DNA from: Arion vulgaris
Taxonomy: Eukaryota > Mollusca > Gastropoda > Stylommatophora > Arionidae
Assembly (NCBI GenBank): GCA_020796225.1
Contig: CM036759.1
Coordinates: 2,851,782-2,915,781, forward strand
DNA: 64,000 bases
Direction: 5' to 3'
Shown here: piece after piece, positions 19,636-59,349 of the stretch
How the letters are laid out: every line of letters starts with the position of its first letter
Position numbering within the stretch: the stretch's first letter is position 1
Translations under genes and position numbers: made by a program
Notes under the pieces: generated by a model
Database searches by the model: none
Seen by the model: only the letters and a program-made list of their open reading frames with translations
What the model was told of the DNA's origin: nothing

Positions 19636-19926
19636 CTAAGGCACAAGATTCATCCTGTAGTTAGACATGGGCGGAAACGACAGCGGAGACATGTGATTGA
19701 CATCATGGATAGGAGAGGCAACACGGGGAGGAGTTTGAAAGCCAACAGCTCCTGGGAAAGATGGACTGCTAAGAGTTGCAGTTGTGTAAGTTGATGAACG
19801 GTTCCAGTCATCTTTGAAGATTTGTATTGTGAGACATGAGACCAAGTTGTTGAGACGGTTGTAGACATGAGCCAGTACCAGTTGCTCGTCTGCATCACGG
19901 CGGACTCGAACTTGGACACATCCAGC
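19636..19926 (-). CDS. SLC30A6: SLC30A6 exon 12 (terminal), cytoplasmic C-terminal domain
   Basis: After the acceptor CTATTTGTACATACAG the frame reads A-G-C-V-Q-V-R-V-R-R-D-A-D-E-Q then V-L-A-H-V-Y-N-R-L and T-I-Q-I-F-K-D-D-W, the conserved end of the ZnT6 cytoplasmic domain. A less conserved Ser/Pro-rich tail follows, ending N-L-V-P-stop. The exon is 97 codons including the stop and starts in phase 0, matching exon 11. The tail after the KDDW block is about 55 residues, shorter than I recall for vertebrates. A second frame is open across most of the exon but has no family resemblance. Confidence 0.93.
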   Translation of the reverse strand, partial: AGCVQVRVRRDADEQLVLAHVYNRLNNLVSCLTIQIFKDDWNRSSTYTTATLSSPSFPGAVGFQTPPRVASPIHDVNHMSPLSFPPMSNYRMNLVP

Positions 19927-20019
19927 CTGTATGTACAAATAGTAAACAAATTATGTCACATTATTATGTTGTTATTGACTTTGTGAATAACATAGCAATA
20001 TTCACATATACTAAGGAGG

Positions 20020-20660
20020 ACACAAAGGAGAAAACTGAGCAAGTCAATTGGTCAAATCAGTAGGTCTAAAAACTAAAACAAATAAAAAACAAGGTCATGA
20101 GAAGCAAATGCAAAAACAGAGAGGAGATTATGGTAGAGGAGGAAGATAGAAAAGGTGAAAGAGTTCAATATTTTGGTAGTTATGTAACAATAGATGGGAA
20201 TGTAAGAAAATTAATTAAAGCAAGAATTGAAATGGCAGCTGCAACATTCTGATCATTGGAGAACATATGGAGATCATCAGCTTACAGGACACAGACTAAA
20301 CTCAAATACATACAAATCAAATGTGTGCTCAATCTTACTGTATGGATCAGAGACATGAGAAGAACATATGGAGATCATAGCTTACAGGACACAGACTAAA
20401 CTCAATATATACAAATCAAATGTGCACTCAATCCTATTGTCGGATCAAAGACATGGAAAACATGTACCAAGACAAAACAGTTGCATAAGAAGTTTTGAAG
20501 GAAGATGTTTCAGGAAAATGTTTTGAATTCGTTTTCATCAAGGGAAAAGGGACATATCCATGTGCTTCCAGATTCACCAGCGTATGTTTGGCAGGTCTGT
20601 TTAAGTGCTCGGCTTCCATGGAGTTGGTACTACAGATGATATGACCACAGATTAAACGAA
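20020..20660 (+). mobile_element. Decayed non-LTR retrotransposon fragment with internal duplication
   Basis: In broken + frames I read Q-Y-F-G-S-Y-V-T-I-D-G-N, matching the F-x-Y-L-G-S-x-I-T-x-D-G motif after the reverse transcriptase domain, then I-K-A-R-I-E-M-A. A stretch of about 97 bp, including AGAACATATGGAGATCAT, occurs twice in tandem at 20261-20457. It lies antisense in the last SLC30A6 intron. Confidence 0.75.
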
Positions 20661-20689
20661 GGGAGACATGATAGTCAGCATGTACATTT

Positions 20690-20925
20690 AGCAGGACCTT
20701 AAGGCATTTAGCAGGACCTTAAGGCATTTAGCAGGACCTTAAGGCATTTAGCAAGACCTTAAGACATTTAGCAGGACCTTAAGGCATTTAGCAGGACCTT
20801 AAGGCATTTAGCAGGACCGTAAGGCATTTAGCAGGACCTTAAGGCATTTAGCAGGACCTTAAGGCATTTAGTAGGACCTTAAGGCATTTAGCAGGACCTT
20901 AAGGCATTTAGCAGGACCTTAACAT
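20690..20925. repeat. Minisatellite, 19-bp unit, about 12 copies
   Basis: Repeats of CATTTAGCAGGACCTTAAGG with few changes, starting directly after the retroelement fragment. Confidence 0.97.
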
Positions 20926-21069
20926 CCAGCCAGCAGGACCTTTCAGCCTGGCACATACATTTCATCACATCATTTTTGAGAGCAAGTGTGCTGTCCTTCT
21001 CAGATTCCTACTCGCTCAGTAAGGTTGCAGTGATGCAACCTGCTACCAGGGTCAGCACTTGCAAGTGGA

Positions 21070-21235
21070 GTAGGATCTTCTTCTCTCGTTCGTTCTTCAC
21101 AGCCAATTTTATCATTCTTAGTGTGATATATAATTGATCTTTGACAAGAACGGCTTTTTACGTTGTGCTATTATGCATAAATGGTGACTAGGCCCGCCCA
21201 CCCGATTTCAGCCAGCTGTTTATTTACTAGGGTAA
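21070..21235 (-). mobile_element. Chimeric S4a/S4b fragment
   Basis: From left to right this matches first the S4a 3' end (CGTTCGTTCTTCACAGCCAA, then GATCTTTGACAAGAACG), then S4b-like TTGTGCTATTATGC, S4a-like CCCGATTTCAGCC, and S4b-like TTTATTTACTAGGGTAACTT. The mixture suggests recombination or template switching between the two families. Confidence 0.6.
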
Positions 21236-22455
21236 CTTGCCCTAGAATGATCCGTTGTGCTGTATATATTGGCTTGGATCTACGCCTTTACAATAATCTT
21301 TTTGCCGTATATTTGGGCTTTGCGATCTATGCCAAACAGTGAATCTACACTGAGCGCCCTTTCTGACTGTGAGGTCATTCTGGATTAGGAACATTTCTCT
21401 GTCTTTTGGAGCACATTAGCTTGTCCTGGGACGGATTCTTACTTGTATAACACACTGTGTAAAGTGTCGGCCTTCGCCAATGTTTGGATTTGGACAGCCT
21501 GTTAAATATTTACATTTTCAGTCTTACTTTCCTGACCACTTAAGAGTTTATTCCGGAGTAGGAACATTCTCAGCCTTTTCGAGGCACGTGTCGGCACTTG
21601 GCAATTTGCAGTTATTACTCTGCATTTCCCTGGCCCCGGGAAACACTGGACTGGAGCTACGCACAAATAATGTAGAGGGTCATTTCATTAACCGCTAGCA
21701 ACGCAACTGAAATTTTGCGCGCACCAACATCACCCACCTCAGTTTTTCCAGGGATGTTAGTTGTAAATGCAACAGTATCTTGCCCAGTTGTCCCAGGGAG
21801 GGCAGTCTCGTTAGGCATCACCCACCCCAGGTCCTCCGAGGATGTTAGTTGTTAATGCAACAGTACCTTGCCTGTTGTCCCAGGGAGGACAGTTTCGTTA
21901 GGCACTAAAACACAACTTTAGGATTTGCGCTTGGCCAACCTTACCCAGTAAATGTATCCGCACTAAGCCTTTGATACAGAGTTTACCACAATCTTCTAGT
22001 GCATCGACACGATACGTTACAGCGTTTTCAGAGACACTTGCCAAGACCGTTGATTCGCTACGCATCATTCTTATTTATTCTTGCCCCACAGCTGGCAATT
22101 TGTTTGCAGGCCTTTTACTTCCCGAGGGACTGTTTTAGATTCGTTCCCAGCATGCTGGACTGCTGTTTTCTTATGTTTTGAGCAACTATTTGGGAAATTT
22201 TGTTCGGACATCAGCCAGGAGATGCGTGCATTTTGTTCGTAAATTTTGGACCTGCTTTGCTTTTCCGTGCTTGCACTACTACCACTACCCGTAGCTCTCC
22301 TCGATCCCTACCCGTTTAGCCAGACGGAACCAATGTCTGTTACCAGGGTCACCACGAGGAGGTGGGGTAGGATCTTGATTAGTGCCAGCTCACTAATCCT
22401 AGCGCAGCGTTGTCCCCATGCACCTTTAACCCTGAGTAGGATCTGATTCACTGAC
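21236..22455. other. Intronic region richer in G and C, unassigned
   Basis: Holds an 88-bp tandem duplication at about 21728-21904 (each copy with GATGTTAGTTGTNAATGCAA) and fragmentary internal similarity, such as GAGTAGGAACATTCTC against GATTAGGAACATTTCTC. It looks like an old mobile element or duplicated unique DNA. Short open frames have no recognisable product. Confidence 0.5.
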
Positions 22456-22464
22456 GACTGTCAT

Positions 22465-23885
22465 ATCATTAAATGTGTCTCAGGCTGCTGTCAACACTTG
22501 TAACAATTATAAGACCAGGGATTAAATGTGTCTCAGGCTGCTGTCAACACTTGTAACAATTATAAGACCAGGGATTAAATGTGTCTCAGGCTGCTGTCAA
22601 CACTTGTAACAATTATAAGACCAGGGATTAAATGTGTCTCATGCTGCTGTCAACACTTGTAACAATTATAAGACCAGGGATTAAATGTGTCTCATGCTGC
22701 TGTCAACACTTGTAACAATGTGTCTCATGCTGCTGTCAACACTTGTAACAATTATAAGACCAGGGATTAAATGTGTCTCAGGCTGCTGTCAACACTTGTA
22801 ACAATTATAAGACCAGGGAGTAAATATGTCTCATGCTGCTGTCAACACTTGTAACAATTATAAGACCAGGGATTAAATGTGTCTCATGCTGCTGTCAACA
22901 CTTGTAACAATTATAAGACCAGGGATTAAATGTGTCTCATGCTGCTGTCAACACTTGTAACAATTATAAGACCAGGGAGTAAATGTGTCTCATGCTGCTG
23001 TCAACACTTGTAACAATTATAAGACCAGGGAGTAAATGTGTCTCATGCTGCTGTCAACACTTGTAACAATTATAAGACCAGGGAGTAAATATGTCTCATG
23101 CTGCTGTCAACACTTGTAACAATTATAAGACCAGGGATTAAATGTGTCTCATGCTGCTGTCAACACTTGTAACAATTATAAGACCAGGGATTAAATGTGT
23201 CTCATGCTGCTGTCAACATTTGTAACAATTATAAAACCAGGGATTAAATGTGTCTCAGGCTGCTGTCAACACTTGTAACAATTATAAGACCAGGGATTAA
23301 ATGTGTCTCATGCTGCTGTCAACACTTGTAACAATTATAAGACCAGGGATTAAATGTGTCTCATGCTGCTGTCAACACTTGTAACAATTATAAGACCAGG
23401 GATTAAATGTGTCTCAGGCTGCTGTCAACACTGACAATATAAGCCAGGGATGTAATTTGTTCTACATGATGCTGCTCCGGCTTGATAACACGTAGTTACT
23501 ACGAGCCAGGGATAAATGTGTCTCATGATGTCTGTCACACTGTAAGTTAGATCTTATAGTGCCAGTCACTATACAGTGTCTCATGCCTAACCTGTAATCA
23601 TCACTACACTTGTAACAATGTGTCTCATGCTGCTGTCAACACTTGTAACAATTATAAGACCAGGGATTAAATGTGTCTCATGGGTGCTGTCAACACTTGA
23701 CATTAACGAATGTGTCTCATGTGCTGTCAACACTTGTAACAATTATAAGACCAGGGATTAAATGTGTCTCATGCTGCTGTCAACACTTGTAACAATGTGT
23801 CTCATACTACTGTCAACACTTGCTAACTGACATGATGTCTCATACTACTGTCAACACTTGTAACAATTATAAAACCAGGGATTAA
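22465..23885. repeat. Minisatellite, ~53-bp unit, about 26 copies
   Basis: The unit contains ATTAAATGTGTCTCATGCTG, CTGTCAACACTTGTAACAAT and TATAAGACCAGGG. Some copies lack the last part. A heavily corrupted zone at about 23420-23730 sits between clean copies. Confidence 0.97.
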
Positions 23886-24645
23886 AATTTATGCAGAAAC
23901 ATATTTATCTTCTTCTTTGAACCACAAATAAATTATGAGTTTTCACTCGTTTTCATATTAAGAGTAGGGGAGAGATCCTGAGCTTTCTTGCAGACTCAGA
24001 AGACTTCAACAACTTCAAATGTGTAGTGCTATGCCTAGAGTTGCAGAAACTCCTACTCAGGTAGTGTCTATCGGTGGTCACTTCAGTATCTCCTCAGTTC
24101 TAATGCAGTAGGTCTCTAGAAAGATCACTAGTTGATCACACTTGGCAATCTGCATGTGATTATAGTCCAAAGAGTTACTTCTGTGATCTCTCTAGAACAA
24201 CCACTTGTTGACCACTCTCTGTGACCTTTGTGTGATTGACACCAGAGGGTGTACTGGACAACCACCTGTTTGGACAGACGGAGGATTTGCGTTTGCTCGG
24301 CGATCATTTTCGGCTTTCATTGTGGCCTTTACTTGATCTGAGCCAGGAAGCGATTCACATACTGTAGATGTTCTCCTGCACATCAAGAGTAGTAGCATTG
24401 TCAACCACTCTAGGACGTGAGTAGTTTTGTCACCACCAGGCAATTTGAAGTTTCTACTTTGTAATTTTCCTTCCGATGAAGTGGAAACATCGGGCTACGG
24501 TTGAACTCAAGTAAACAGAGAGGGGAGTTTCATTAGACACTAGAACAAGCATGTTCACCTGTTCCAAGTAGAACAACACTGGAAGAAGAAGACTAATGAC
24601 TTGTTCCAGTGACAACACTAGAAGAAGGAAAACTAGATGACTTAC
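23886..24645. other. Intron sequence with a degenerate S4b-like fragment
   Basis: At 24180-24360 pieces such as ACCACTTGTTGACCACTCTC and CTTGATCTGAGCCAGGAAGC match the S4b tail but are split by about 100 bp. At 24540-24640 two copies of a short GTTCCAGT/AACACTAGAAGAAG motif lie just inside the exon 11 donor. No gene is seen. Confidence 0.5.
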
Positions 24646-24762
24646 CAGACATCCAAATGAGAGAGTCCAGAAATGCTCATGCCTGAACTCCAGCACTCCA
24701 TCCAATGTGGATGCTTCTCTGAGCACTTTATCTAGTTGACTGAGAATATGTGATGGTGTGGT
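24646..24762 (-). CDS. SLC30A6: SLC30A6 exon 11
   Basis: After the acceptor ATCTTGTCACTTAG the frame reads T-T-P-S-H-I-L-S-Q-L-D-K, then R-E-A-S-T-L-D-G-V-L-E, then E-H-F-W-T-L-S-F-G, the characteristic ZnT6 segment after the last membrane helix (T-T-P-P-H-V-I-x-Q-L-D-K and S-T-L-D-G-V-L-E). The donor is G|GTAAGT. It has exactly 39 codons, phase 0 at both ends, matching exons 10 and 12. Confidence 0.95.
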
Positions 24763-24964
24763 CTAAGTGACAAGATAAATCAGAAATATTCTGTAACTGA
24801 CAAGTAATAGAGACATGGACTATCAATTTATAATACAAGTATGGCACTAAACAAATATATGTCAGATGGAATCAAATGGGTTAGTGTAATTCACTTCAGA
24901 TGAAGCTAGCAATTCACATGAAGGCATTTTTGTTCAAGGTAAGGGAGATAATCAATAATTATGC

Positions 24965-25285
24965 TCTTCAAATGTTCTCCATCGACCACTTGTTAAACCA
25001 TTCTTTGTGACTTGTATGTGCCTAAAAGCAATTTTATGTTGTGCCAGTTATGTGCCTACAAGTAGGTCAGCACATCCAATTTCTAATATGATTTGTATTT
25101 ACTAGGTAATTTTATTTTCCAGTTATGTCCTACAAGTAGGTCAGCACATCAATTTCTAATATGATTTTTATTTACTAGGGTAGCTTTCCTATGCCTCTAC
25201 CTCAGTCACCTCTTACGACACACCTTCTGGTTGCAGTGTTACTATTCTTTGCTCCCCTTGCAAGCCCTGGCATCACACAGGCGAC
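24965..25285 (-). mobile_element. S4b SINE-like element with internal duplication
   Basis: Read leftwards it has the head TGCAAGGGGAGCAAAGAATA, the core GTCGTAAGAGGTGACTGAGG, and the tail with AAGTGGTCGATGGAGAAC. A block of about 70 bp containing GTGCTGACCTACTTGTAGG and the TTTACTAG-like segment occurs twice (25043-25180). Only S4b elements in this window have this layout. Confidence 0.75.
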
Positions 25286-25315
25286 AATTGTGTTCAATCA
25301 TTTATTTCACAGAGT

Positions 25316-27284
25316 CACGGTAGCATAGTGGTTTGTGTAGTTGCTTCCTAGATGAGTGATCTTGGTTAGCATAGTGGTATGTGTAGTTGCTTCCTAGATG
25401 GGTGATCTTGGTTAGCATAGTGGTTTGTGTAGTTGCTTCCTAGATGAGTGATCTTGGTTAGCATAGTGGTTTGTGTAGTTGCTTCCTAGATGAGTGATCT
25501 TGGTTAGCATAGTGGTTTGTGTAGTTGCTTCCTAGATGAGTGATCTTGGTTAGCATAGTGGTATGTGTAGTTGCTTCCTAGATGAGTGATCTTAGTTAGC
25601 ATAGTGGTATGTGCAGTTGCTTCCTAGATGGGTGATCTTAGTTAGCATAGTGGTATGTGCAGTTGCTTCCTAGATGAGTGATCTTGGTTAGCATAGTGGT
25701 ATGTGTAGTTGCTTCCTAGATGAGTGATCTTAGTTAGCATAGTGGTATGTGTAGTTGCTTCCTAGATGAGTGATCTTGGTTAGCATAGTGGTTTGTGTAG
25801 TTGCTTCCTAGATGAGTGATCTTAGTTAGCATAGTGGTATGTGTAGTTGCTTCCTAGATGAGTGATCTTGGTTAGCATAGTGGTTTGGTAGTTAGCTTCC
25901 TAGATGAGTGATCTTAGTTAGCATAGTGGTATGTGAGTTGCTTCAGATGAGTGATCTTGGTTAGCATAGTGGTTGTGTCAAGACTTCCTAGATGGGTGAT
26001 CTTGAATTAGCTAAGTGGTTTGATGGTTGCTTCTAGATAGTGATCTTGTTCAGTGTATTGTAGTTGCTTCCTAGATGGGTGATCTTGAGTTAGCATATAG
26101 TTTTTAGTTAGCTTCTAGATGAGTGATCTTGGTTAGCATAGTGGTTTTTAGTTGCTTCTAGATGAGTGATCTTGGTTAGTCATAGTGGTATATGGCAGTT
26201 GCTTCTAGATAGTGATCTTGTTGATAGTGGTTTGTGTAGTTGCTTCCTGATGAGTGATCTGTGCATAGTGGTATGTGAGTTCTTCTAGATGAGTGATCTT
26301 GAGTTAGATAGTGGTTAGTGTAGTGCTTCCTAGATAGTGATCTTGGTTAGCATAGTGGTTTGTGAGTTGCTTCCAGATGAGTGATCTGAGCAATGGTCTA
26401 TGTGCTTCAGATGAGTGATCTTGGTGCATAGTGAGTAGTGTATTGCTTCCTAGATGAGTGATCTTGAGTTAGCATAGTGAGAATGCAGTTGCTTCACAGA
26501 TGGTGATCTTAATTAGCATAGTGGTATGTGCAGTTGCTTCTAGATGAGTGATCTTGTTAGCATAGTGGTATGTGTAGTTGCTTCCTAGATGAGTGATCTT
26601 AGTTAGCATAGTGGTATGTGTAGTGCTTCCAATGAGTGATCTTGTTAGCATAGTGGTTTATTAGTTGCTTCAGATGAGTGATCTTGGTTAGCATAGTGGT
26701 TGAATGTAGTTGCTTCCTAGATGAGTGATCTTGGTTAGCATAGTGGATATGTAGTTGCTTCCTAGATGAGTGATCTTAGTTAGCATATGGTATGTGTAGT
26801 ATGCTTCTAGATGAGTGATCTTGGTTAGCATAGTGGTTTGTGTAGTTGCTTCCTAGATGGGTGATCTTGGTTAGCATAGTGGTTTGTGTAGTTGCTTCCT
26901 AGATGAGTGATCTTGGTTAGCATAGTGGTATGTGTAGTTGCTTCCTAGATGGGTGATCTTGGTTAGCATAGTGGTTTGTGTAGTTGCTTCCTAGATGAGT
27001 GATCTTGGTTAGCATAGTGGTTTGTTCAGTTGCTTCCTAGATGAGTGATCTTGGTTAGCATAGTGGTTTGTGCAGTTGCTTCCTAGATGAGTGATCTTGG
27101 TTAGCATAGTGGTTTGTGTAGTTGCTTCCTAGATGAGTGATCTTGGTTAGCATAGTGGTATGTGTAGTTGCTTCCTAGATGAGTGATCTTGGTTAGCATA
27201 GTGGTTTGTGTAGTTGCTTCCTAGATGGGTGATCTTGGTTAGCATAGTGGTTTGTGCAGTTGCTTCCTAGATGAGTGATCTTAG
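25316..27284. repeat. 46-bp array, about 43 copies, amplified from a SINE head
   Basis: The unit contains TTAGCATAGTGGTTTGTGTA and GTTGCTTCCTAGATGAGTGA, then TCTTGG. This matches the A-box to B-box interval of S3 SINEs (compare TAGCATAG..GCTTCTTAGG..GGTTCAATTC in the copies at 42855 and 37686). The array starts at the SINE 5' end (GTCACGGTAGCATAGTGG), and its last unit runs into TTTCATCCCTAGTTAGGATA, the normal S3 continuation. The zone 25870-26820 is full of small deletions. Confidence 0.9.
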
Positions 27285-27480
27285 TTTCATCCCTAGTTAG
27301 GATAAAAAATGTTATAACCACAAACAAATATCAGGTGGACCTAGTCTCAGCAGAGAAACACTGGAAAGTAAAGGTGGCTGACATGATGTTGACCACATCA
27401 CCCGTTGCAAACCGCTGGTCAAAAACACATATGTGCCAGATGTTGTATTTCTCAAATATACTACATGGTGTTGAAATGGT
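27285..27480 (+). mobile_element. Body of the S3 SINE whose head was amplified
   Basis: Contains ATCAGGTGGACCTAGTCTCA, GAAACACTGGAAAGTAAAGG and ATGATGTTGACCACATCACC, which are S3 body motifs in the right order and directly downstream of the array. Confidence 0.85.
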
Positions 27481-31765: not shown

Positions 31766-31944
31766 TGAGTACACTTGCATATCTTGCAATGTATCTGCCA
31801 TTATATGATCATCGTTGATTCATGAACTACTCATCTGTCTGTCTGTCTGTCAGCGTAGAAATATTTGATAATAGAACTCCTATCGACAATAACAACACAA
31901 TTTATATACAGAATAATAGTTACCATTATCTGCTATTGAGTAAA

Positions 31945-32450
31945 ATATTGTCCCCCTTACCTGTAGTAATATCTTGTCCCCCTTACCTGTAGTAAAATCT
32001 TGTCCCCTTTACATGCAGTAATATCTTGTCTACCTTACCTACAGTAATATCTTGTCCCCCTTACCTGCAGTAATATCTTGTCTACCTTACCTGCAGTAAT
32101 ATCTTTCACCTTACCTGCAGTAATATTTTGTCTACCTTATCTGCAGTAATATCTTGTCCCCCTTACCTGCAGTAATATCTTGTCTACCTTACCTGCAGTA
32201 ATATCTTGTTCCCCTTACCTGCAGCAAAATCTTGCCCCCCTTACCTGCAGTAATATCTTGTTCCCCCTTAACTGCAGTAATATCTTGCCCACCTTACCTA
32301 CAGTAAAATCATGTCTAATTACCTGCAGTAATATCTTGTCCACCTTACCTGCAGTAATATCATGCCCACCTTACCGACAGTAAAATCGGGTCCACTTACC
32401 TGCAGTAATATCATGCCCACCTTACCTACAGTAAAATTGTGTCCACTTAC
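31945..32450 (-). repeat. ~25/26-bp array made of the exon 10 5' splice site, about 20 copies
   Basis: On the - strand each unit is built on GATATTACTGCAG|GTAAGG. The 18 nt GGCAAGATATTACTGCAG at the end of exon 10 is found unchanged in unit copies inside the array. It begins at the exon 10 donor itself. Near the exon, 25- and 26-nt units alternate, giving a 51-nt period that keeps the reading frame. About a dozen copies keep CTGCAG|GTAAG intact; others have CTGTAG or CTACAG. Confidence 0.93.
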
Positions 32451-32553
32451 CTGCAGTAATATCTTGCCTGCATATGTACTCATGGGAAACATAGTGCCAA
32501 AAATCATGAAAGCAATAATGACGGCAGCCCATGGATCAGCTAAATAATATTGA
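32451..32553 (-). CDS. SLC30A6: SLC30A6 exon 10, last transmembrane segment
   Basis: After the acceptor GTTTTGTCTGCAG the frame reads Q-Y-Y-L-A-D-P-W-A-A-V-I-I-A-F-M-I-F-G-T, then M-F-P-M-S-T-Y-A-G-K-I-L-L-Q. This matches the ZnT6 segment with ...F-G-T-M-Y-P-M-S-V-Y-S-G-K-V-L-L-Q as I remember it, including membrane helix six. The donor is CAG|GTAAGT. One nucleotide completes the codon begun in exon 9, followed by 34 full codons. The donor is the first of a tandem series of copies, so several 5' splice sites compete here in principle. Confidence 0.95.
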
Positions 32554-34090: not shown

Positions 34091-34269
34091 ACCTTCCAAG
34101 AATAAATATGACATTGTAGAAGTCTGTCAGGTGTCTGTCTATCGGAATCTATTCTTCCCATTTGTATAGACAAGTTAATAATGTTAGAGAAAGAGAAAAA
34201 CAGATTTATAGACAAGCTATAAAGTGTAAGTTCAAGCGCCAGGTAACATGAAATATAATGCATAAATTG

Positions 34270-35146
34270 TAACTTACTGAGTATCAATAAAGTGTAAGTT
34301 TAAGCGCCATGTAACAGATAAAATTGTAACTTACTGAGTATCAATAAAGTGTAAGTTTAAGCGCCAGGTAACAGATAAAATTGTAACTTACTGAGTATCA
34401 ATAAAGTGTAAGTTCAAGCGCCAGGTAACAGATGAAATATAATGCATAAATTGTAACTTACTGAGTATCAATAAAGTGTAAGTTTAAGCGCCATGTAACA
34501 GATAAAATTGTAACTTACTGAGTATCAATAAAGTGTAAGTTTAAGCGCCAGGTAACAGATAAAATTGTAACTTACTGAGTATCAATAAAGTGTAAGTTTA
34601 AGCGCCAGGTAACAGATAAAATTGATAAAATTCTTACTGAGTATCAATAAAGTGTAAGTTCAAGCCAGGTAACAGATAAAATTGTAACTTACTGAGTATC
34701 AATAAAGTGTAAGTTCAAGCCAGGTAACAGATAGATATATGAATAAATTGTAACTTACTGAGTATCAATAAAGTGTAAGTTCAAGCCAGGTAACAGATAA
34801 AATTGTAACTTACTGAGTATCAATAAAGTGTAAGTTCAAGCCAGGTAACAGATAAAATATAATGCATAAATTGTAACTTACTGAGTATCAATAAAGTGTA
34901 AGTTTAAGCGCCAGGTAAGAGATAAAATATAATGAATAAATTGTAACTTACTGAGTATCAATAAAGTGTAAGTTCAAGCGCCAGGTAACAGATAAAATCT
35001 AATGAATAAATTGTAACTTACTGAATATCAATAAAGTGTAAGTTCAAGCCAGGTAACAGATGAAATTGTAACTTACTGAGTATCAATAAAGTGTAAGTTC
35101 AAGCGCCAGGTAAGAGATAAAATATAATGCATAAATTGTAACTTAC
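34270..35146 (-). repeat. ~55-75-bp array containing the exon 9 5' splice site, about 15 copies
   Basis: On the - strand every unit has TTATTGATACTCA|GTAAGTTAC. TATTGATACTCA is the last 12 nt of exon 9 and GTAAGTTACAATTT its donor and first intron bases. Between copies lie TTACCTGGCGCTTGAAC and AACTTACACTTTA, with optional ATGCATTATATT. The array abuts exon 9. Confidence 0.93.
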
Positions 35147-35266
35147 TGAGTATCAATAATAATATAGTTGACCAACAGAACAAAGCTGCAGGTGAATCCA
35201 ATCAGAGCAAACGGATTAATCCTCGGCAGAAGCAGTTTACTCAAGCCAGGAACAAATGAACATAAA
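35147..35266 (-). CDS. SLC30A6: SLC30A6 exon 9
   Basis: With AG from exon 8 the frame reads S-L-C-S-F-V-P-G-L-S-K-L-L-L-P-R-I-N-P-F, then A-L-I-G-F and a hydrophobic run to Y-I-I-I-D-T. This matches S-L-C-G-I-I-P-G-L-S...L-P-R-M-N-P-F in ZnT6. The acceptor is GTTTTTTCCAG and the donor CA|GTAAGTTAC. It has 39 full codons with phases 2 in and 2 out, agreeing with both neighbours. Confidence 0.95.
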
Positions 35267-37976: not shown

Positions 37977-38118
37977 CTTTCACTCATATCTGTGACATGT
38001 TCTTGTAGCCAACTTGAACTTGATGCATCAATCACATGGTTGACGCTCGATTTTTACAGCATATATAATGGACAAATGCACACAGAAGCCAAATGATGTT
38101 CCTACCAGCAGTCGACCA
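37977..38118 (-). CDS. SLC30A6: SLC30A6 exon 8, with apparent 8-nt frame-breaking gap
   Basis: After the acceptor TTTCTTCTACAG the frame completes Thr and reads G-R-L-L-V-G-T-S-F-G-F-C, then I-E-R-Q-P, matching G-R-L-L-V-G-T...N-K-P of ZnT6. It then hits a stop. Shifting frame near 38028-38038 gives V-I-D-A-S-S-S-S-W-L-Q-E-H-V-T-D-M-S, matching V-S-E-A-A-S-T-S-W-L-Q-E-H-V-A-D-L-S. Both halves have the right outer phases, so only the middle is wrong. The exon is 142 nt where 150 would fit. The fault is an assembly error, a null allele or a decaying gene; the sequence cannot say which. The EHVTD spacing departs from the usual HxxxD metal site, as in ZnT6 generally. Confidence 0.88.
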
Positions 38119-40309: not shown

Positions 40310-41950
40310 ATCATCATCAGGTGCCGTGCCGCTGGCGTAGGCGATCATGGATCTCCACAAATCTCTGTCATTGGTGTTTGCTATCAACTCAGATGTTGAC
40401 GCTCTACCGTGCCATGAAGTCAGGCTATCCAAAATTTTCTCTCTCTGTCTTCCTCTGTCTCGTCTACCTCGATTTTACCAGTTGTCACAATGTGTTCTAA
40501 ACCTCCTCCTCATCACATGCCCGAAAAATGATGACTGCCTCTTTCTTATATTGATGATAAGCTTCTCTGTGTCTTGATCTCATTCAGCACCTCAACATTA
40601 GTCATTTTAGCAGTCCATGGGATTCTCATCATTCTTCTATAAAATCACATTTCTGTGGCCCTCAGAGATTTTTTGATCTGTGTGTTCATTGTCCATGACT
40701 CGCATCCGTATGTCAGTATTGGTTCTATGTAGCACTGAATAACTTGCATTCTGATCGGGATTGACAAGGACTTGTTGCAGATAATGCTTCTCATTTTCAG
40801 GAATGATGTTTTCGCTTGTCCTATTCTGCTCTTTATTTCTGATCGGCATCTGCCATCTGATGTTACCAGAACTCCGAGGTATTTAAACTGCTGCACTTGT
40901 CTTAGATCAGTCCCATTTACTGTGATGGTACATTTTGGGAAAATCTGCTTTTTTGATATGATCATAACTTCTGTCTTCTTAATATTCAAACTGAGTCCTT
41001 TGTTGTTACTTTCTGTCACAACCTTATCAACTAATTTCTGTAGCTCCATTTCATTTCTTGCTATCAATAACAGTATCATCAGCGTATCTCAGGTTATTTA
41101 TGATATGTCCTCCCACAGCTATTCCAGGAAAATCTTTTATAGATCTAAAAATGCTTTCACAATACAGTGACAACAGGTCTGGTGATAATACGCATCCTTG
41201 TCTAACACCTTTTTGATCTTCTGGAAAGTTCCAATCTTTTTGTCTATTCTTATAGTTGCTGTTTTGCTGCCAATATATATTCTGAATGATTCTTAGATCT
41301 TTGCTGTCGATGTTTAAGCTCTCTAACATTTTGGAAAGTTCTTGATGGCGTACGTTGTCGAACGCCTTGGTGTAGTCAATAAAGCACAAGTATAGATCTG
41401 CTTTTATTTCTATTGATTTTTCTAATAGTGTTCTTAGGATATATATAGCGTTGCTAGTGCCCTTGCCTTCAACAAATCCACACTGCTCATCACTGATTTC
41501 TGGTCTTATTCTGCTTCTTATCCTTCTCATCATTATCCTCAGTAGCATCTTTGTCATAAGACTGATAGTGCGGTGATCTTCACATTCCACTGCTCTTGAT
41601 TTCTTCGGCAAAGCAATAAATATGGACTTTAATAGATCTTTTGGAATACAACCGCTGTCATATATGTCGTTTAAAAGCTTCATTATCACTTCCGTTCTAG
41701 ATTTCCTAGAGCTTGAATTTCTTCTGCTGTTTGGTTATCTGGACCTGGAGACTTTCCCTCTTAATGTGTTTTATGGCATCTTCAACTTCAGCTGCAAGTA
41801 TTGGTGGTCCCTTGCATATGTCTGGTATATTTAGTTCTCCTCTGTCATCATGTAAGAGTTCTCCAATATATTCCATCCATAGTCCCGTTATGTTTTCTTC
41901 CCCATTAATATCGTACCTTCTTTGGATTTTAGACATCCAGTTCGTGTGTG
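40310..41950 (-). mobile_element. Non-LTR retrotransposon, RT and C-terminal part, frameshifted
   Basis: The - strand codes for most of a LINE ORF2 in about four frames. The order is I-P-K-D-L-L-K-S-I-F-I-A-L-P-K-K, L-C-F-I-D-Y-T-K-A-F-D (RT domain, first catalytic Asp), G-V-R-Q-G-C-V-L-S-P, and R-Y-A-D-D-T (catalytic YADD) near 41070. Then comes F-K-Y-L-G-V-L-V-T-S-D-G, and the C-terminal L-T-Y-G-C-E-S-W and R-I-P-W-T-A-K motifs. The 3' end has GATGATGATGATTTTC near 40310. One frameshift lies just after YADD, with others in the C-terminal part and a break upstream of the RT core. There is no endonuclease domain here, so it is 5'-truncated and dead. It is in the same orientation as SLC30A6. 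Confidence 0.93.
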
Positions 41951-42074: not shown

Positions 42075-42110
42075 GTATGAACCTCCTGTGGCATCAATAA
42101 GCGCTCTACG
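42075..42110 (-). CDS. SLC30A6: SLC30A6 exon 7 (36 nt)
   Basis: With AG from exon 6 this reads S-V-E-R-L-L-M-P-Q-E-V-H, and the last two bases begin the Thr finished in exon 8. It matches S-A-E-R-F-L-E-Q-P-E-I-H-T of ZnT6. The acceptor is TTTATTCCAACAG and the donor AC|GTAAGT. It is a very small exon, but its phases fit both sides exactly. Confidence 0.9.
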
Positions 42111-47053: not shown

Positions 47054-47134
47054 CTTTCTTTGACAATAAAGAATGCGCCTAGTTGTGACAGCATTGTGCA
47101 AGAGAAGACGGCTAGTACTTCGAAACGCTCAAAC
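47054..47134 (-). CDS. SLC30A6: SLC30A6 exon 6
   Basis: With GG from exon 5 the frame reads G-F-E-R-F-E-V-L-A-V-F-S-C-T-M-L, then S-Q-L-G-A-F-F-I-V-K-E. This matches F-E-R-L-E-V-L-A-V-F-A-S-T-V-L-A-Q-L-G-A-L-F-I-L-K-E-S of ZnT6, covering membrane helix three. The acceptor is CTATATATGGCCAG and the donor AG|GTATGT. Incoming phase 2 and outgoing phase 2 agree with exons 5 and 7. Confidence 0.95.
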
Positions 47135-50054: not shown

Positions 50055-50120
50055 CCAAAAGAAAAAGCACTGACTGGATGTTGTGTTTGAACCCAGACAC
50101 TTAGCAAGCAGGTCATCAGA
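50055..50120 (-). CDS. SLC30A6: SLC30A6 exon 5
   Basis: With AG from exon 4 this reads S-L-M-T-C-L-L-S-V-W-V-Q-T-Q-H-P-V-S-A-F, then S-F-G. It matches S-L-M-T-C-L-I-S-Y-W-V...P-V-Y-S-F-G of ZnT6 (end of membrane helix two and the loop before F-E-R-L-E). The acceptor is TTTCCTCCCAATACAG and the donor GG|GTGAGT. Its 66 nt fit both phases. Confidence 0.94.
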
Positions 50121-51490: not shown

Positions 51491-51567
51491 AGCTGTAACA
51501 CAGCATAACAAACACTGTTTTCAAAGTAAAGACAGAAGAAGAAGAACAAGAAGCATCTGTGACTGAC

Positions 51568-51610
51568 CTCAGAATATCAAATATCAAAAGAAAACCAAAT
51601 GCAGTCAGAG
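51568..51610 (-). CDS. SLC30A6: SLC30A6 exon 4 (43 nt), membrane helix two
   Basis: With G from exon 3 this reads A-L-T-A-F-G-F-L-L-I-F-D-I-L, and AG begins the next Ser. It matches A-L-T-A-Y-T-Y-L-T-I-F-D-L-F of ZnT6, including the lone Asp where other ZnTs have HxxxD; the His is absent, as in ZnT6. The acceptor is TTTTCTTTCCACAG and the donor AG|GTCAGT is weaker than the others. Phases agree with both neighbours. Confidence 0.92.
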
Positions 51611-51847
51611 CTGTGGAAAGAAAACAAAAATGACTGTAAAAATGTTCAGTTTATCAATGGCATAAATAAATATATTTTATCAATAATATAAATCTGTATT
51701 TTTTTTAATGAATATAACTTTAGCCATAACAAACGTTACAACTCTTATAACACTTTCTAGATTTAATTGGATACAGAGCCAGGCTCAGAACACACCTTCT
51801 AGATTAGTTAAAGTTACTGACACAAGACAAATGTAGATGATCCTTAC

Positions 51848-51926
51848 CCATGCTGCTCGTTGAGTGAGACCAGTAGAGAAGAACAACTGTGCACAAAATG
51901 GTGAGTGTAAGTAAGTACATAATTTT
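51848..51926 (-). CDS. SLC30A6: SLC30A6 exon 3, membrane helix one
   Basis: The frame reads K-I-M-Y-L-L-T-L-T-I-L-C-T-V-V-L-L, then Y-W-S-H-S-T-S-S-M. This fits K-I-L-L-F-G-V-I-N-L-I-C...W-C-S-S-T-N-S-I of ZnT6 and is a good membrane helix. The donor is GG|GTAAGG. The acceptor, GTAGGCCAAG, is less typical than the rest. It has 26 codons plus one base; the phases fit. Confidence 0.9.
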
Positions 51927-52653
51927 CTTGGCCTACAACATAAAGAAATCAACAACATTTGAACAAATCTGGAATACTATGTTATGATTCTCTAAACTGA
52001 AATACAGAATAGAAATAATCTGCAGAATGAATTCAATATTCAGGAAATATAAAAAGCAACAAATATGAAATGACTGTCAGGAAAACAGGAAAAGTTCTCT
52101 CATTTCAAAACAAAGATAAAATAATTTTGTAGTTAACAGGGTCTGAATTTCTACACTTCTGTTGTATCATCTACTTGATAAAAACCTTTTTGTTGAAACG
52201 TTGCGGTATATTATTTTTGTAATTTGTAAAACTAAAGTACTTTGTTTTTACGTGTTTCACCATTACTACATAATTTTACTGCAGTTTTCCCTCAAATTGA
52301 TAATAGTTAACAAGTCAGGACAAAATATCAATAACATAAATATCAAATGTAAATGTATTCATGTAGCATTCCTTTATAAAAACAGTTTTCATCACAGCCT
52401 ATCTGAAAGTCTTGCAATCTCTATCCAACTTTTCGTACCTCCTCTATCACTGTGTTCAAGGTTTAGTTGATGTCCTGTTGCCACCATCATCTTGGTCGTC
52501 CCCTACCTTCTCTCCAAGAATCAGGCTCTCTGTTACTGATCTCTTGACACCACTATGTTGTTTAAATTCAGTTTCCACAACATTATTATTTTAAAAAGCA
52601 ATGTTTAAATCTTAAAATTTAAAACTAGTCAACATACACTGCAAGTAATTTAC
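51927..52653. other. SLC30A6 intron 2, mostly unique
   Basis: AT-rich. At about 52170-52205 lies CTTGATAAAAACCTTTTTGT followed by TGAAACGTTGCGG, a motif also found inverted at about 59957-59995. No other element is recognised. Confidence 0.5.
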
Positions 52654-52743
52654 CTCTTGCAATTGTACAAGTTTAGCACATTCTCTGACCAGGGCTCCAA
52701 GTGCTGTGTGATTGTGAGGAGATGTAAATGGATATATTGTTCC
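52654..52743 (-). CDS. SLC30A6: SLC30A6 exon 2, N-terminus
   Basis: After the acceptor TCTAATCTTGCAG the frame reads G-T-I-Y-P-F-T-S-P-H-N-H-T-A-L, then G-A-L-V-R-E-C-A-K-L-V. ZnT6 starts M-G-T-I-H-L-F-R-K-P and continues G-K-L-L-R-E-F, so this is the first bulk coding exon, with the initiator ATG supplied by the exon before. It has 30 codons, phase 0 at both ends; the donor is GAG|GTAAAT. The acceptor is the nearest of about ten tandem copies. Confidence 0.9.
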
Positions 52744-53140
52744 CTGCAAGATTAGATTAAAATGAGAGAATGTAAATGGATATATTGTTCCCTGCAAGAT
52801 TAGATAATGTAAATGGATATATTGTTCCCTGCAAGATTAGATTATGTAAATGGATATATTGTTCCCTGCAAGATTATATTAAAATGAGAGAATGTAAATG
52901 GATATATTGTTCCCTGCAAGATTAAATTATGATATGTAAATGGATATATTGTTCCCTGCAAGATTAGATTAAAATGAGAGAATGTAAATGGATATATTGT
53001 TCCCTGCAAGATTAGATTATGATATGTAAATGGATATATTGTTCCCTGCAAGATTAGATTAAAATGAGAGAATGTAAATGGATATATTGTTCCCTGCAAG
53101 ATTAGATAATGAGATAATGTAAATGGATACATTGTTCCCT
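52744..53140 (-). repeat. 36-50-bp array made of the exon 2 3' splice site, about 9 extra copies
   Basis: On the - strand each unit reads TTTTAATCTAATCTTGCAG, then GGAACAATATATCCATTTAC, that is, the exon 2 polypyrimidine/AG and the first ~22 nt of exon 2. Units are long (with CTCTCA) or short. The frame through the array stays open and repeats G-T-I-Y-P-F-T. The outermost copy, at about 53127, is the most diverged. Confidence 0.94.
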
Positions 53141-53224
53141 GAAAGATTAGTCAATAGTTAACATATACTAATATGCAGACTCTCGAAAGGCAAAATTAAT
53201 TATTGTACCAATCTCATATTTGTT

Positions 53225-53420
53225 TTAACCGGTTAGAACCTTAGGTGCTCAGTCTCCTTCAACAGATGTCAAAATTTGTGTATGCTCATGGTTCTTGTGA
53301 CTTGCTGGTTAAACACACTCATTTGGCCTCACTGGTCTTACTTGAGAATCGTCATTCAAAATTCCTCAATCCTAGTAGAGATTCCATCCACCCATACAAC
53401 AAGCAGTCGCTAATCAACTG
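53225..53420 (+). mobile_element. Decayed retroelement fragment related to 58510-58760
   Basis: GGTGCTCAGTCTCCTTCAAC and GGTTCTTGTGACTTGCTGGT match the 58.5 kb copy. The shared translation V-Y-A-H-G-S-C-D-L-L-V-K-H-T suggests the T-D-G-S start of an RNase H domain. It is short and uncertain. Confidence 0.45.
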
Positions 53421-53565
53421 CACTATGTTGTCCTTATCAATCTTTAACAACAAAAACTATAAATATTGATCCAACCGTGCCTGTTCTCTCACTACTGCCT
53501 ACAACTGTACATCCAGGAAGTAGATTTAAGTAAGTCCCTAAAGGTTGACGTCTGTATATACTACT

Positions 53566-53918
53566 TTTTTTTTTTTTTTTTTTTTTTTCTTTTTTTTTTC
53601 TTTCGTCCGCTTTCAACTCAGACGAAGTTTCATCTCTGAAACTGATTTTTGCGTGAAAATCTGTTTTTCCAATTTCTTACAATGGCAGCAGCGTGCACAT
53701 TGTAAATTACTTACACTGGCAGCCGTGTGCTCAATGTACTCGTAATTAGTATTCCTCGCCATACAGGCAGATTTTCTCCGACTTCAGAGGTACTCACGTT
53801 ATCGTCCTGAGTAAGACCAGGGGACTCGAACAAATGCCGGACAGTAGGTTCGAACCCGAGCTATGAGGCTTCTCACAGCTAGCAGGCCGAGCTACTATCA
53901 ACTACTCTAGGCAGTCCC
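53566..53918 (-). mobile_element. S1 tRNA-derived SINE, full length
   Basis: The T-run at the left is the poly-A tail on the - strand. The head at the right has GGTTCGAACC (B box) and GTAGCTCGGCCTGC (A-box region). A 14-bp duplication, CTGTATATACTACT, lies at 53552-53565 and 53919-53932. It is close in sequence to 28650-28985. Confidence 0.96.
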
Positions 53919-54056
53919 CTGTATATACTACTAAAACCTGTCATTCTGAGACCCTTCGAAGCATGTAGGACACAATAATTGTTCAATATTCTGAATCTCC
54001 GAGAGAACTGAAGAATGACAATAATAACCCCAAACTCCATTTTCATGACACAAATA

Positions 54057-54907
54057 CATTGTCGGTGTGTTGTGTGTAGCTCTATGATGACCCTAGTGGA
54101 TGCAATAACTAGAAAACTTCAGTCACATTTGTCACCACCCTACATAGAACCATTGTTGGTGTGTTGTGTGTAGCTCTGTGATGACCCTAGTGGATGCAAT
54201 AACTATAAAACTTCAGTCACATTTGTCACCACCCTACATAGAACCATTGTTGGTGTGTTGTGTGTAGCTCTGTGATGACCCTAGTGGATGCAATAACTAG
54301 AAAACTTCAGTCACATTTGTCACCACCCTGCATAGAACCATTGTTGGTGTGTTGTGTGTAGCTCTGTGATGACCCTAGTGGATGCAATAACTAGAAAACT
54401 TCAGTCACATTTGTCACCACCCTGCATAGAACCATTGTTGGTGTGTTGTGTGTAGCTCTGTGATGACCCTAGTGGATGCAATAACTAGAAAACTTCAGTC
54501 ACATTTGTCACCACCCTACATAGAACCACTGTTGGTATGTTGTGTGTAGCTCTGTGATGACCCTAGTGGATGCAATAACTAGAAAACTTCAGTCACATTT
54601 GTCACCACCCTGCATAGAACCATTGTTGGTGTGTTGTGTGTAGCTCTGTGATGACCCTAGTGGATGCAATAACTAGAAAACTTCAGTCACATTTGTCACC
54701 ACCCTGCATAGAACCATTGTTGGTGTGTTGTGTGTAGCTCTGTGATGACCCTAGTGGATGCAATAACTAGAAAACTTCAGTCACATTTGTCACCACCCTG
54801 CATAGAACCATTGTTGGTGTGTTGTGTGTAGCTCTGTGATGACCCTGTGGATGCAATAACTAGAAAACTTCAGTCACATTTGTCACCACCCTGCATAGAA
54901 CCATTGT
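54057..54907. repeat. Minisatellite, 94-bp unit, about 9 copies
   Basis: The unit contains CATTGTTGGTGTGTTGTGTG, TAGCTCTGTGATGACCCTAG and TGGATGCAATAACTAGAAAA. Copies are nearly identical. Confidence 0.97.
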
Positions 54908-54928
54908 TGACTGACTGATTGAATGACT

Positions 54929-55181
54929 CGCCCGTGAGGTTCTGGGGTCCATAAGGGAAGTAAAGAATAGTACCACTGCAACCTACAAGGCATGTTGTAT
55001 GAGGCGACTGATGTAGGACCTAGGAAGCTACCCTAGTAAATAAAAAGTGTTGCAGAAATCGGATGTGCTGGCCTACTTGTAGGCGCATAACTGCACAACG
55101 CAAATCACTCTTAGACTCAGATTATATACAAATCACACAGAGTGGTTAACAAGTGGTCGATATGAAGCGTTCGAAGAAGAA
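54929..55181 (+). mobile_element. S4b SINE-like element with target-site duplication
   Basis: Head CGCCCGTGAGGTTCTGGGGT, AGTAAAGAATAGTACCACTG, CTACCCTAGTAAATAAAAAG, GGCCTACTTGTAGGCGCATA, tail TTCGAAGAAGAA. A 12-bp repeat, GATTGAATGACT, lies at 54917-54928 and 55182-55193. Confidence 0.95.
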
Positions 55182-55193
55182 GATTGAATGACT

Positions 55194-55749
55194 GATTGGA
55201 ACATTATCATTGCCCTTTGAGGAATAACTATGTTCTCCAATCTCTTTATTATGCAGGAAGACCTAAGTGCGCCAGACAAACTCCCGAGCACCGAAGAGGG
55301 CTCCAATGTGATTTTTAAAAAGGTGAAAATATGCTGGAATTTTATTTTTAATCAATTTTAACCGGGCTGTGACTTTCCAGCCCACTAGATAAAAGAGAGC
55401 GTAGAGGACTGAGAGAACATCCTATGTATCAGCTAAAGTTTTCAGTTTCATCTGCAGCAACTGTGGCAAGGATTGCCACTCCAGAATAGGACATTACAGC
55501 CATGAGAATTGTGATTCAGCACAGAACAAACTATGTGACGCAGAGCCTATTGTCTCCTGAGACAAAGAGACCAATGATTACGAAGAATTTATATAAAATT
55601 CTTATACTGCCTTATTCTCAGTTATCAACAGTAAAGATATCACTCTTCTTATATCAGTACAGATTAGTGAAATTATTTATGTTAAACATGATGGCTATGA
55701 TTGACAGTAGAACAAAAACTGAAAGAAATGAATGACAGCTGGAACACAA
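55194..55749. other. Intron sequence, unassigned
   Basis: At 55260-55440 there is weak resemblance to a LINE 3' region, such as GGAATTTTATTTTTAATC then GTGACTTTCCAGCCCA. I do not recognise a gene. Confidence 0.4.
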
Positions 55750-56745
55750 TACAGAGGACAACCAGAGAATAGAGAAGAATGGTGTGTATTTATTGCTGCT
55801 GTAAGCGTCAGAGAATAGAGAAGAATGGTGTGTATTTATTGCTGCTGTAAGCACCAGAGAATAGAGAAGAATGGTGTGTATTTATTGCTGCTGTAAGCGT
55901 CAGAGAATAGAGAAGAATGGTGTGTATTTATTGCTGCTGTAAGCGTCAGAGAATAGAGAAGAATGGTGTGTATTTATTGCTGCTGTAAGCGTCAGAGAAT
56001 AGAGAAGAATGGTGTGTATTTATTGCTGCTGTAAGCACCAGAGAATAGAGAAGAATGGTGTGTATTTATTGCTGCTGTAAGCACCAGAGAATAGAGAAGA
56101 ATGGTGTGTATTTATTGCTGCTGTAAGCACCAGAGAATAGAGAAGAATGGTGTGTATTTATTGCTGCTGTAAGCACCAGAGAATAGAGAAGAATGGTGTG
56201 TATTTATTGCTGCTGTAAGCACCAGAGAATAGAGAAGAATGGTGTGTATTTATTGCTGCTGTAAGCACCAGAGAATAGAGAAGAATGGTGTGTATTTATT
56301 GCTGCTGTAAGCACCAGAGAATAGAGAAGAATGGTGTGTATTTATTGCTGCTGTAAGCACCAGAGAATAGAGAAGAATGGTGTGTATTTATTGCTACTGT
56401 AAGCGTCAGAGAATAGAGAAGAATGGTGTGTATTTATTGCTGCTGTAAGCACCAGAGAATAGAGAAGAATGGTGTGTATTTATTGCTGCTGTAAGCACCA
56501 GAGAATAGAGAAGAATGGTGTGTATTTATTGCTGCTGTAAGCGCCAGAGAATAGAGAAGAATGGTGTGTATTTATTGCTGCTGTAAGCACCAGAGAATAG
56601 AGAAGAATGGTGTGTATTTATTGCTGCTGTAAGCACCAGAGAATAGAGAAGAATGGTGTGTATTTATTGCTGCTGTAAGCGTCAGAGAATAGAGAAGAAT
56701 GGTGTGTATTTATTGCTGCTGTAAGCGCCAGAGAATAGAGAAAGA
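55750..56745. repeat. Minisatellite, 46-bp unit, about 21 copies
   Basis: The unit contains CAGAGAATAGAGAAGAATGG, TGTGTATTTATTGCTGCTGT and AAGCAC or AAGCGT. On the - strand each copy has a pyrimidine-rich run ending GCTTACAG. It lies in the candidate first intron of SLC30A6. Confidence 0.97.
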
Positions 56746-57226
56746 GTTAGAGATTCTGACATACACAAAATAAATCAAGAATATCATTATATGTTGGCAA
56801 CAATTCACAAATGAGCAATGATGTCTATTTTGGACAAGGAATGTTTTTGTATATAAGAATAATAAGTAAATGTGATCTCACCGATGTATTGTGCAATGTT
56901 TTTGAAGGTCCTCTGTCTTCATCTGTAAACAAATGTGAAATAACTGATAAGAATAGCTTTCAAATAGAGATCAAATAAGCATTTAACACTTCCAATTAAG
57001 AAACATTTTTGCAATCTTAAATTGTTATAAATATAACTGTTGCACTTAAATTAGATTTCTGTTCAGGGCAATAAGGAAATGGCTCAAGTAGAGAAAAAAA
57101 CATAGATTACCTCCATTTGTTTTGCATATTAGTAAAGTAAAGATCCCATTTTCATAGCATGTGGTGTAGTGAGGAGTATAGTGTTCGGTGACTGTCCCAA
57201 CGGTTTAAAGATCTTCCTTTATAATT
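56746..57226. other. Intron sequence
   Basis: AT-rich. A - strand exon-like segment at 56882-56922 has good splice sites but does not fit the gene model (see rejected items). Confidence 0.5.
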
Positions 57227-57238
57227 ATGTGTTCAATT

Positions 57239-57493
57239 CTTCTTCTTCGAACGCTCCATATCGACCACCTGCTAACCACTCTGTGTGATTTGTATTTGAT
57301 CTGAGCCTAAGAACGATTGTACATTGTGCCAGTTATGCACCTACAAGTAGGCCAGCACATCCGATTTCTACAATGCTTTTATTTACTAGATTAGCTTCCC
57401 TAGTTCCTACATCAGTCGTCTGTTACGACATACCTTGTCGGTCACAGTGGTACTATTCTTTGCTTCCCTTGCGGGCCCGGCACCACAAAGGCG
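57239..57493 (-). mobile_element. S4b SINE-like element with target-site duplication
   Basis: Left end CTTCTTCTTCGAACGCTCCA, ACCTACAAGTAGGCCAGCAC, right end GGGCCCGGCACCACAAAGGC. A 12-bp repeat, ATGTGTTCAATT, lies at 57227-57238 and 57494-57505. Confidence 0.95.
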
Positions 57494-57505
57494 ATGTGTT
57501 CAATT

Positions 57506-58008
57506 AATTTTGGCTACCTTATTATTATTTTTTTACCTAGCATTTCACAACAGACAAAAATACTACATTTTCTTTTATATATTTCTCAGACATCATGGAG
57601 TCGGCTCTGTAGTTGCTAGAGAACTTTCCTGTCGCTATTGTTAGCTTCCTATGTTGTCTGTTACTGAGTATTTTTCTTTCAATGTTGTTTTCTTGGTGTC
57701 TATCTCTCTATGCTATGCATAACATACTTCTGAGGAACTATATTTCTGCTACTAGAAGTGATTTGTTGTGTGTTTTTAAGCAATACATCTACAGAGATTT
57801 AATGGCTGAATATAACACTAGAATACTCTTACTTTCCCTCTCTGGAACTTGTTTGCTTATCTTCTTGCTGTACACTTTAATTTTTAACTTGTGAAATCCT
57901 GTTCTTTATTTATGCTATACGGATTCTGTTAGATAATAATGCTAATCAAAAATTAGATGGAGAGAATGTTTTAGAGACTTTGACTTTTGCTATCTGTTCC
58001 TCATTCTC
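57506..58008. other. Unique sequence
   Basis: A + strand frame (57613-57894) gives a hydrophobic 93-residue translation with no family match. The T-rich composition alone explains the hydrophobicity, so I do not call a gene. Confidence 0.45.
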
Positions 58009-58455
58009 TATCTGTTCCTCATTCTCTATCTGTTCCTCATTCTCTATCTGTTCCTCATTCTCTATCTGTTCCTCATTCTCTATCTGTTCCTCATTCTCTA
58101 TCTGTTCCTCATTCTCTATCTGTTCCTCATTCTCTATCTGTTCCTCATTCTCTATCTGTTCCTCATTCTCTATCTGTTCCTCATTCTCTATCTGTTCCTC
58201 ATTCTCTATCTGTTCCTCATTCTCTATCTGTTCCTCATTCTCTATCTGTTCCTCATTCTCTATCTGTTCCTCATTCTCTATCTGTTCCTCATTCTCTATC
58301 TGTTCCTCATTCTCTATCTGTTCCTCATTCTCTATCTGTTCCTCATTCTCTATCTGTTCCTCATTCTCTATCTGTTCCTCATTCTCTATCTGTTCCTCAT
58401 TCTCTATCTGTTCCTCATTCTCTATCTGTTCCTCATTCTCTATCTGTTCCTCATG
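58009..58455. repeat. 18-bp tandem repeat, about 25 perfect copies
   Basis: TCTATCTGTTCCTCATTC repeated without visible change. The 18-bp unit keeps several frames open (I-C-S-S-F-S or S-V-P-H-S-L on +, N-E-E-Q-I-E on -), so open frames here mean nothing by themselves. Confidence 0.98.
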
Positions 58456-58509
58456 CTCAAAAATTGGTTATTGGTTACTGAACCAACATCATTGCACTTT
58501 GGGCAGACC

Positions 58510-58760
58510 CATAGGTGCTCAGCCCCCCCCCTCCCCCGAGCCTCCAACAGACGTCAAAGGGTATGCATACTGATGGCTCCTGTGACTCGCTGGTTAAACA
58601 CACTCCTTACTCTACCCCTCAACCATCCAGTTCTACTTGTACAATGGATAACTCCAAACTTTTTAGATCGATTCAACATCAATTTCAGTTTCTTCATCCA
58701 ATAGGCAGTTGTAAAGAAATTAACAACATCCCCCTTATCCACCCTCATCTCCTTAACAAT
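58510..58760 (+). mobile_element. Decayed retroelement fragment
   Basis: The frame with H-T-D-G-S-C-D-S-L-V-K-H-T suggests the first motif of a LINE RNase H. It is related to 53225-53420. A C-run and indels break it. Confidence 0.45.
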
Positions 58761-58949
58761 TAATGCTGTTGATGCAAGCCTGTCCACTCTCTCATTGATG
58801 CAAAATCTGCTTGCTAGAGTTGTGTTAGTAGAAGTAGGGAGAACCGGATCCAATAATTGGAAAATTTGAAACGATACTGTTGACTTTGTTGCCGGTATAT
58901 CTCATATTTAGATGAAATCTATAACAACCATTACTCCCTTTTTGAGACA

Positions 58950-59035
58950 AGGAAGTAAAAAAATGTAAAGGAACCGATTTTCATACCATGATGTATATCT
59001 GGGAATACGGTGCTAGGTTCATATGATTCTTTACG
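58950..59035 (-). mobile_element. S3 SINE tail fragment
   Basis: AAAGGAACCGATTTTCATAC followed by ATGATGTATATCTGGGAATA matches the inverted S3 tail at 36513. Confidence 0.65.
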
Positions 59036-59346
59036 CTTCCGTGTTTTGAGACTAAGCAAGAGTACAACAAAGACTGTCAGATAGAGTAGGACGGTTTATA
59101 AAGATTATAAGTAATTTCAGAGCAGAAACAGATGTTCTAAAATCTGAAAGAGGACTCATGACAGAAAAATAGGAACCACATAGTGCTTCTTATGGATGTC
59201 ATGTATGTCTGGTCAGAATGTCAGTAGTTGCATAACTTGGACTCGCTTGTCAGACCAAGATGACCACCAAAACAATTACCTCATGTGCGAAACTGATTAA
59301 GAGCAATGTATGATAATCTCGTTGGAGATAACAACTTGCGCCTTAC

Positions 59347-59349
59347 CAT
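59347..59349 (-). CDS. SLC30A6: Candidate SLC30A6 exon 1: initiator ATG directly before a donor
   Basis: The - strand reads TGA ATG|GTAAGGCGC. Joining ATG to exon 2 gives M-G-T-I, exactly the start of ZnT6, with an in-frame stop just upstream. The 5' UTR would lie at higher coordinates. Chance occurrence of ATG|GTAAG in several kilobases is not negligible, so this is a candidate only. Confidence 0.4.

Follow-up and report, generated by a model that had tools for sequence, protein, structure and literature searches.

The minus strand of the window (the whole 64,000-nucleotide stretch of Arion vulgaris DNA analyzed here) encodes an ortholog of zinc transporter 6 (SLC30A6/ZnT6), which runs from 59791 to 19636. 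Its 13 coding exons are separated by 12 introns, for a total of 24 splice junctions (Table 1). Most exons were located using a tblastn bait, after which splice sites and phases were set from the sequence. All donors (12/12) start with GT, and all acceptors (12/12) finish with AG. The joined protein matched the cation efflux domain PF01545 (E 4.8e-23), and a database search with it returned 966 homologs. Among the best 120 of these 966, which were listed, the best matches bearing a name were zinc transporter 6, placing the protein within SLC30A6. The highest identity among the matches listed was to an unnamed product of Candidula unifasciata (83%); the zinc transporter 6-A-like protein of Physella acuta, also among them, was 77% identical. 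These matches are most consistent with a pulmonate source, perhaps a terrestrial one.

The preliminary description of this DNA placed the start of the gene at an ATG at 59349. Orthologous proteins instead open with MTTYNRMPDLISSSVNIE, a near-identical form of which is encoded at 59791-59737, and this exon, together with a small exon at 56922-56882, shows the start at 59349 to be wrong. Exon 7 was missed by a motif-restricted search and recovered by a broader one. Exon 8 carries a 1-nt frame offset inside a run of A, which is either a sequence error or a genuine indel. The intron between exons 7 and 8 also holds a LINE-type reverse transcriptase-like open frame (40648-41734, minus strand), and a second frame of this type lies at 62698-63665 on the plus strand; both were judged by eye from translations.

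Table 1. Coding exons of the ZnT6 gene and the tandem arrays at its splice junctions (window coordinates; a slash marks the exon-intron boundary).
Feature	Position	Strand	Remarks
Coding exon 1a, start codon	59737..59791	-	Matches ortholog N-terminus MTTYNRMPDLISSSVNIE; absent from the preliminary description
Exon 1b	56882..56922	-	AG/GT borders, fitting phase, ortholog linker preceding GTIYPF
Exon 2	52654..52743	-	Acceptor seeds array C
Exon 3	51848..51932	-	
Exon 4	51568..51610	-	
Exon 5	50055..50120	-	
Exon 6	47054..47134	-	
Exon 7, 36 nt	42075..42110	-	Best AG..GT candidate (score 26 vs 14 for the next); agrees with orthologs
Exon 8	37977..38118	-	1-nt offset in A run
Exon 9	35147..35266	-	Donor seeds array A
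Exon 10	32451..32553	-	Donor seeds array B
Exon 11	24646..24762	-	
Exon 12, with stop codon	19636..19926	-	
Array A	34219..35159	-	Exon 9 donor TTATTGATACTCA/gtaagttac; 15 copies, last truncated
Array B	31939..32466	-	Exon 10 donor CAAGATATTACTGCAG/gtaag; 20 copies
Array C	52722..53150	-	Exon 2 acceptor ttgcag/GGAACAATATATCCATTTACAT; 10 copies including the real one

Tandem repeats at three splice junctions

At three of the 24 junctions (the exon 2 acceptor, the exon 9 donor, and the exon 10 donor), tandem repeats made of junction sequence extend into the adjoining intron, bearing out the earlier report of three such arrays in one gene. The arrays had also been described as beginning exactly at the junction. 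Their units in fact straddle it, reaching 13 nt (array A), 16 nt (array B), and 22 nt (array C) into the exon, with unit lengths of mostly 55-70, 24-27, and 37-48 nt, respectively. Copies within an array vary by substitutions and in unit length. GT or AG is retained in 40 of the 42 spare units across the three arrays, the exceptions being units 8 and 13 of array B, in which GT is lost. The interior donors lie at 34277-35076 (array A) and 31960-32425 (array B), and the interior acceptors at 52791-53138 (array C).

Using windows of 20 and 24 nt, we searched up to 3 kb from every one of the 24 junctions for copies of its own sequence. At the thresholds used, 9, 13, and 6-7 copies were found at the exon 2 acceptor, the exon 9 donor, and the exon 10 donor, respectively, and zero copies within 3 kb at the other 21 junctions. 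For comparison, 4-5% of 600 random gene positions outside arrays have a copy nearby. An assembly artefact seems a highly improbable source of the arrays: the 1-nt offset in exon 8 suggests some errors in the sequence, but copies differing by substitutions and unit length are unlike the product of simple collapse or stutter, even if copy number may still be wrong.

Relation to mirages

The preliminary description knew of no named class of such arrays, but one exists. According to the available portions of two papers on amphioxus (PMC3087553, PMC3902484), tandem repeats spanning exon-intron boundaries are known there as mirages, with examples in Adh3 and in the globin genes BflGb6 and BflGb9 (PMC3087553); tandem repeats also lie over splice sites of lancelet PGBD5 (PMC3902484). 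The Adh3 mirages are reported to have units of 10-72 bp and to leave normal splicing undisturbed (Canestro et al. 2002, via the accessible text of PMC3087553). Like them, the ZnT6 arrays consist of tandem units that straddle the splice junction; unlike them, they occur in a mollusc, three in a single gene, with 10-20 copies each. As in the mirages of BflGb6 and BflGb9 (PMC3087553, as excerpted), acceptor and donor boundaries are both involved, and many units retain the splice signal. The BflGb6 units, however, measure ~150-160 bp and number 6 and 3 in two haplotypes, compared with 24-70 nt and 10-20 copies in ZnT6. The repeats of PGBD5 have longer units and fewer copies than those of ZnT6, for example a 3 x 108 bp triplication mentioned in PMC3902484.

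Three characteristics of mirages recur in the slug gene. Units span an exon-intron boundary in all three arrays, 5' and 3' boundaries are both represented (two donors and one acceptor), and AG or GT is kept in many but not all units (40/42 spare units). Mirages also leave regular splicing undisturbed, a trait for which the homolog alignment and frame analysis below give indirect support at most, and show allelic or somatic length instability; the ZnT6 arrays come from a single assembled sequence. Judged by their sequence, the ZnT6 arrays would thus be mirages, a known kind newly encountered in a mollusc. No mollusc report of splice-junction arrays was found among the matches listed in the open-access literature, which is not proof of absence. 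The intron repeats of earthworm metallothionein genes are intronic minisatellites, and the available part of that source does not state whether they span a junction (PMC12783039). For Conus gene introns, the accessible part of PMC3862624 mentions only microsatellites.

Consequences of the spare splice sites

Each of the 14 spare donors of array A, if used, would read CAG TAA and bring an immediate stop. In array B, GT is kept in 17 of 19 spare units (not counting a site at 32109, where the inside of a unit happens to match the motif), and an open frame results only from the sites at +51 and +102 nt. Array C has nine spare acceptors, of which the site at +48 nt alone leaves the frame open. Altogether, a frame shift or a stop would result from 37 of the 40 spare sites and an open frame from three, so correct splicing must disregard nearly all of them. 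The protein was aligned with 14 homologs chosen from the 120 listed; these belong to other species and are uninformative about the transcripts of this animal. The joins of exons 9/10 and 10/11 are gap-free and without insert in 14/14 of these, and the start of exon 2 is covered by 13/14, with a repeated segment present in none. A correct mRNA would follow most simply from splicing at the copy closest to the exon body, the choice that exon definition and splice-site proximity predict.

Selection could also retain the extra sites, whether as redundancy against splice-site mutation, the benefit proposed in the preliminary description, or for regulated splicing through in-frame inserts (17, 34, and 16 residues) or unproductive transcripts. 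The GT or AG kept in nearly all spare units, the open in-frame inserts from three spare sites, and the lower variability of the exon part plus splice core are consistent with such retention. Against it, 37 of the 40 sites break the product, which leaves the redundancy proposal unsupported, and inserts are absent at the two donor joins in all 14 aligned homologs.

Variation among units points in the same direction in all three arrays. Mean substitution diversity in the exon-derived part versus the rest of the intron part was 0.006 vs 0.030, 0.081 vs 0.274, and 0.005 vs 0.136. This count dropped 2/15 rows of array A, 1/20 of B, and 1/10 of C (the real exon copy and, in A, the truncated last one) and excluded columns with at least half gaps. 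Rotation tests did not reach significance for the exon part (P 0.35, 0.27, and 0.09), and when the splice core was added to it the lower variability gave P 0.25, 0.08, and 0.13. With rotation tests this weak, we rejected selection on the spare copies as a reading of the common direction. The low variation of the exon part has a neutral account, in which new units are copied from the constrained exon copy; selection is possible but not needed, and we regard retention of the arrays by selection as quite improbable.

Unit A also carries AACTTAC and CTTACCTG, complementary to donor sites (34219-35159). Hairpins masking the spare donors were considered and discarded as a general feature: six of seven folded stretches gave z values of -0.42 to +0.78, and one stretch of array B gave -2.13; in array A, folding was unremarkable.

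Array density and chance placement

The ZnT6 gene contains 27 arrays over 17,882 of its 40,156 nt (45%), so seeds are plentiful, and across the whole window 53% of the sequence lies in 38 merged tandem arrays. A 43-nt minisatellite of ~203 copies occupies 1-8723 and reaches the window edge. Two chance models were applied, both post hoc. In the seed model, each array was reduced to a single unit, and these seeds were dropped randomly on the array-collapsed gene. This model leads to an expectation of 0.84-1.21 junction-straddling seeds, depending on the overlap required, and P 0.049-0.118 for at least three; with an exon overlap of 10 nt or more, the threshold of the preliminary description, the mean is 0.95 and P 0.069. 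Random placement of whole arrays in introns gives P 0.0003 for array edges within 5 nt and 0.013 within 25 nt. This is the result most favourable to the preliminary description, but we regard this null as overly strict, since any seed that straddles a junction necessarily sets the array edge there. The chance tests are weak evidence for a preference for junctions. Random placement had been called a poor explanation of the arrays, and that judgement has marginal support at most: the whole-array model speaks for it and the seed-model P is borderline, both after the fact.

A scan of other arrays for donor motifs covered 27 of the 38 merged arrays in the window, with 11 left out and acceptor motifs outside its scope. 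Two arrays alone stood out against shuffles by their best-donor score (P <= 0.05): array B (0.02) and the one at 16855-18782 (0.05). Array A scored P 0.24, and the scan, which flags one of the two donor arrays, is insensitive. In 19 variable arrays including the junction arrays, conservation at the donor positions did not exceed that elsewhere in the unit (mean rotation P 0.47). The idea that the junction arrays belong to a general donor-seeded class is unsupported by this insensitive scan of 27/38 arrays. In the array at 16855-18782 (plus strand), a 30-nt unit that includes a strong donor-like GAGGTAAGA is repeated ~66 times; no recognized exon adjoins the array, which may represent the mirage of an exon that is unannotated.

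Alternatively, splice junctions of this lineage might act as mutational hot spots where arrays are born, for example through R-loops, breaks, or splice-consensus microhomology, with regrowth from the exon-anchored copy. The whole-array P values (0.0003-0.013), the lower variability of the exon-derived part in 3/3 arrays, and the recurrence of comparable arrays in amphioxus genes (PMC3087553 and PMC3902484, in the parts available) argue for such hot spots, whereas the seed-model values (0.049-0.118) and the lack of donor-motif excess in the other arrays scanned (27/38, with an insensitive scan) argue against them. The junction tally cuts both ways, with three of 24 affected and 21 of 24 free of copies. 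On balance, hot spots appear unlikely. Similarly doubtful is a fuller version in which junctions are preferred birthplaces of minisatellites, with repeated regrowth, an exon part conserved, an intron part drifting, and dozens of intact decoy sites ignored by strict exon-proximal choice. If this version is true, mirages would be a recurrent animal phenomenon rather than an amphioxus oddity.

Origin and implications

The three arrays probably reflect ordinary minisatellite formation in an array-dense stretch, striking junctions by chance and tolerated there. A short duplication would have chanced to straddle an exon-intron border, and slippage or unequal exchange would then have expanded it. Since the exon has to keep one copy attached, growth would be confined to the intron side. 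The array would persist because splicing takes the site nearest the exon body, so that the spare copies depart with the intron. We infer both this growth process and the exon-proximal choice of splice site. The involvement of two donors as well as one acceptor favours chance seeding, and the earlier suggestion of slippage-type growth tolerated at junctions is consistent with the sequence.

Splice-junction minisatellites would hereby be extended from amphioxus to a mollusc. Amphioxus globin mirages have been proposed as a source of new introns or shifted exon borders (PMC3087553, available portion), and the junction arrays of ZnT6 may likewise be raw material for either. The gene is also a natural test construct: at two donors and one acceptor, splicing has to distinguish the correct site from nearly identical neighbours numbering 10 to 20.
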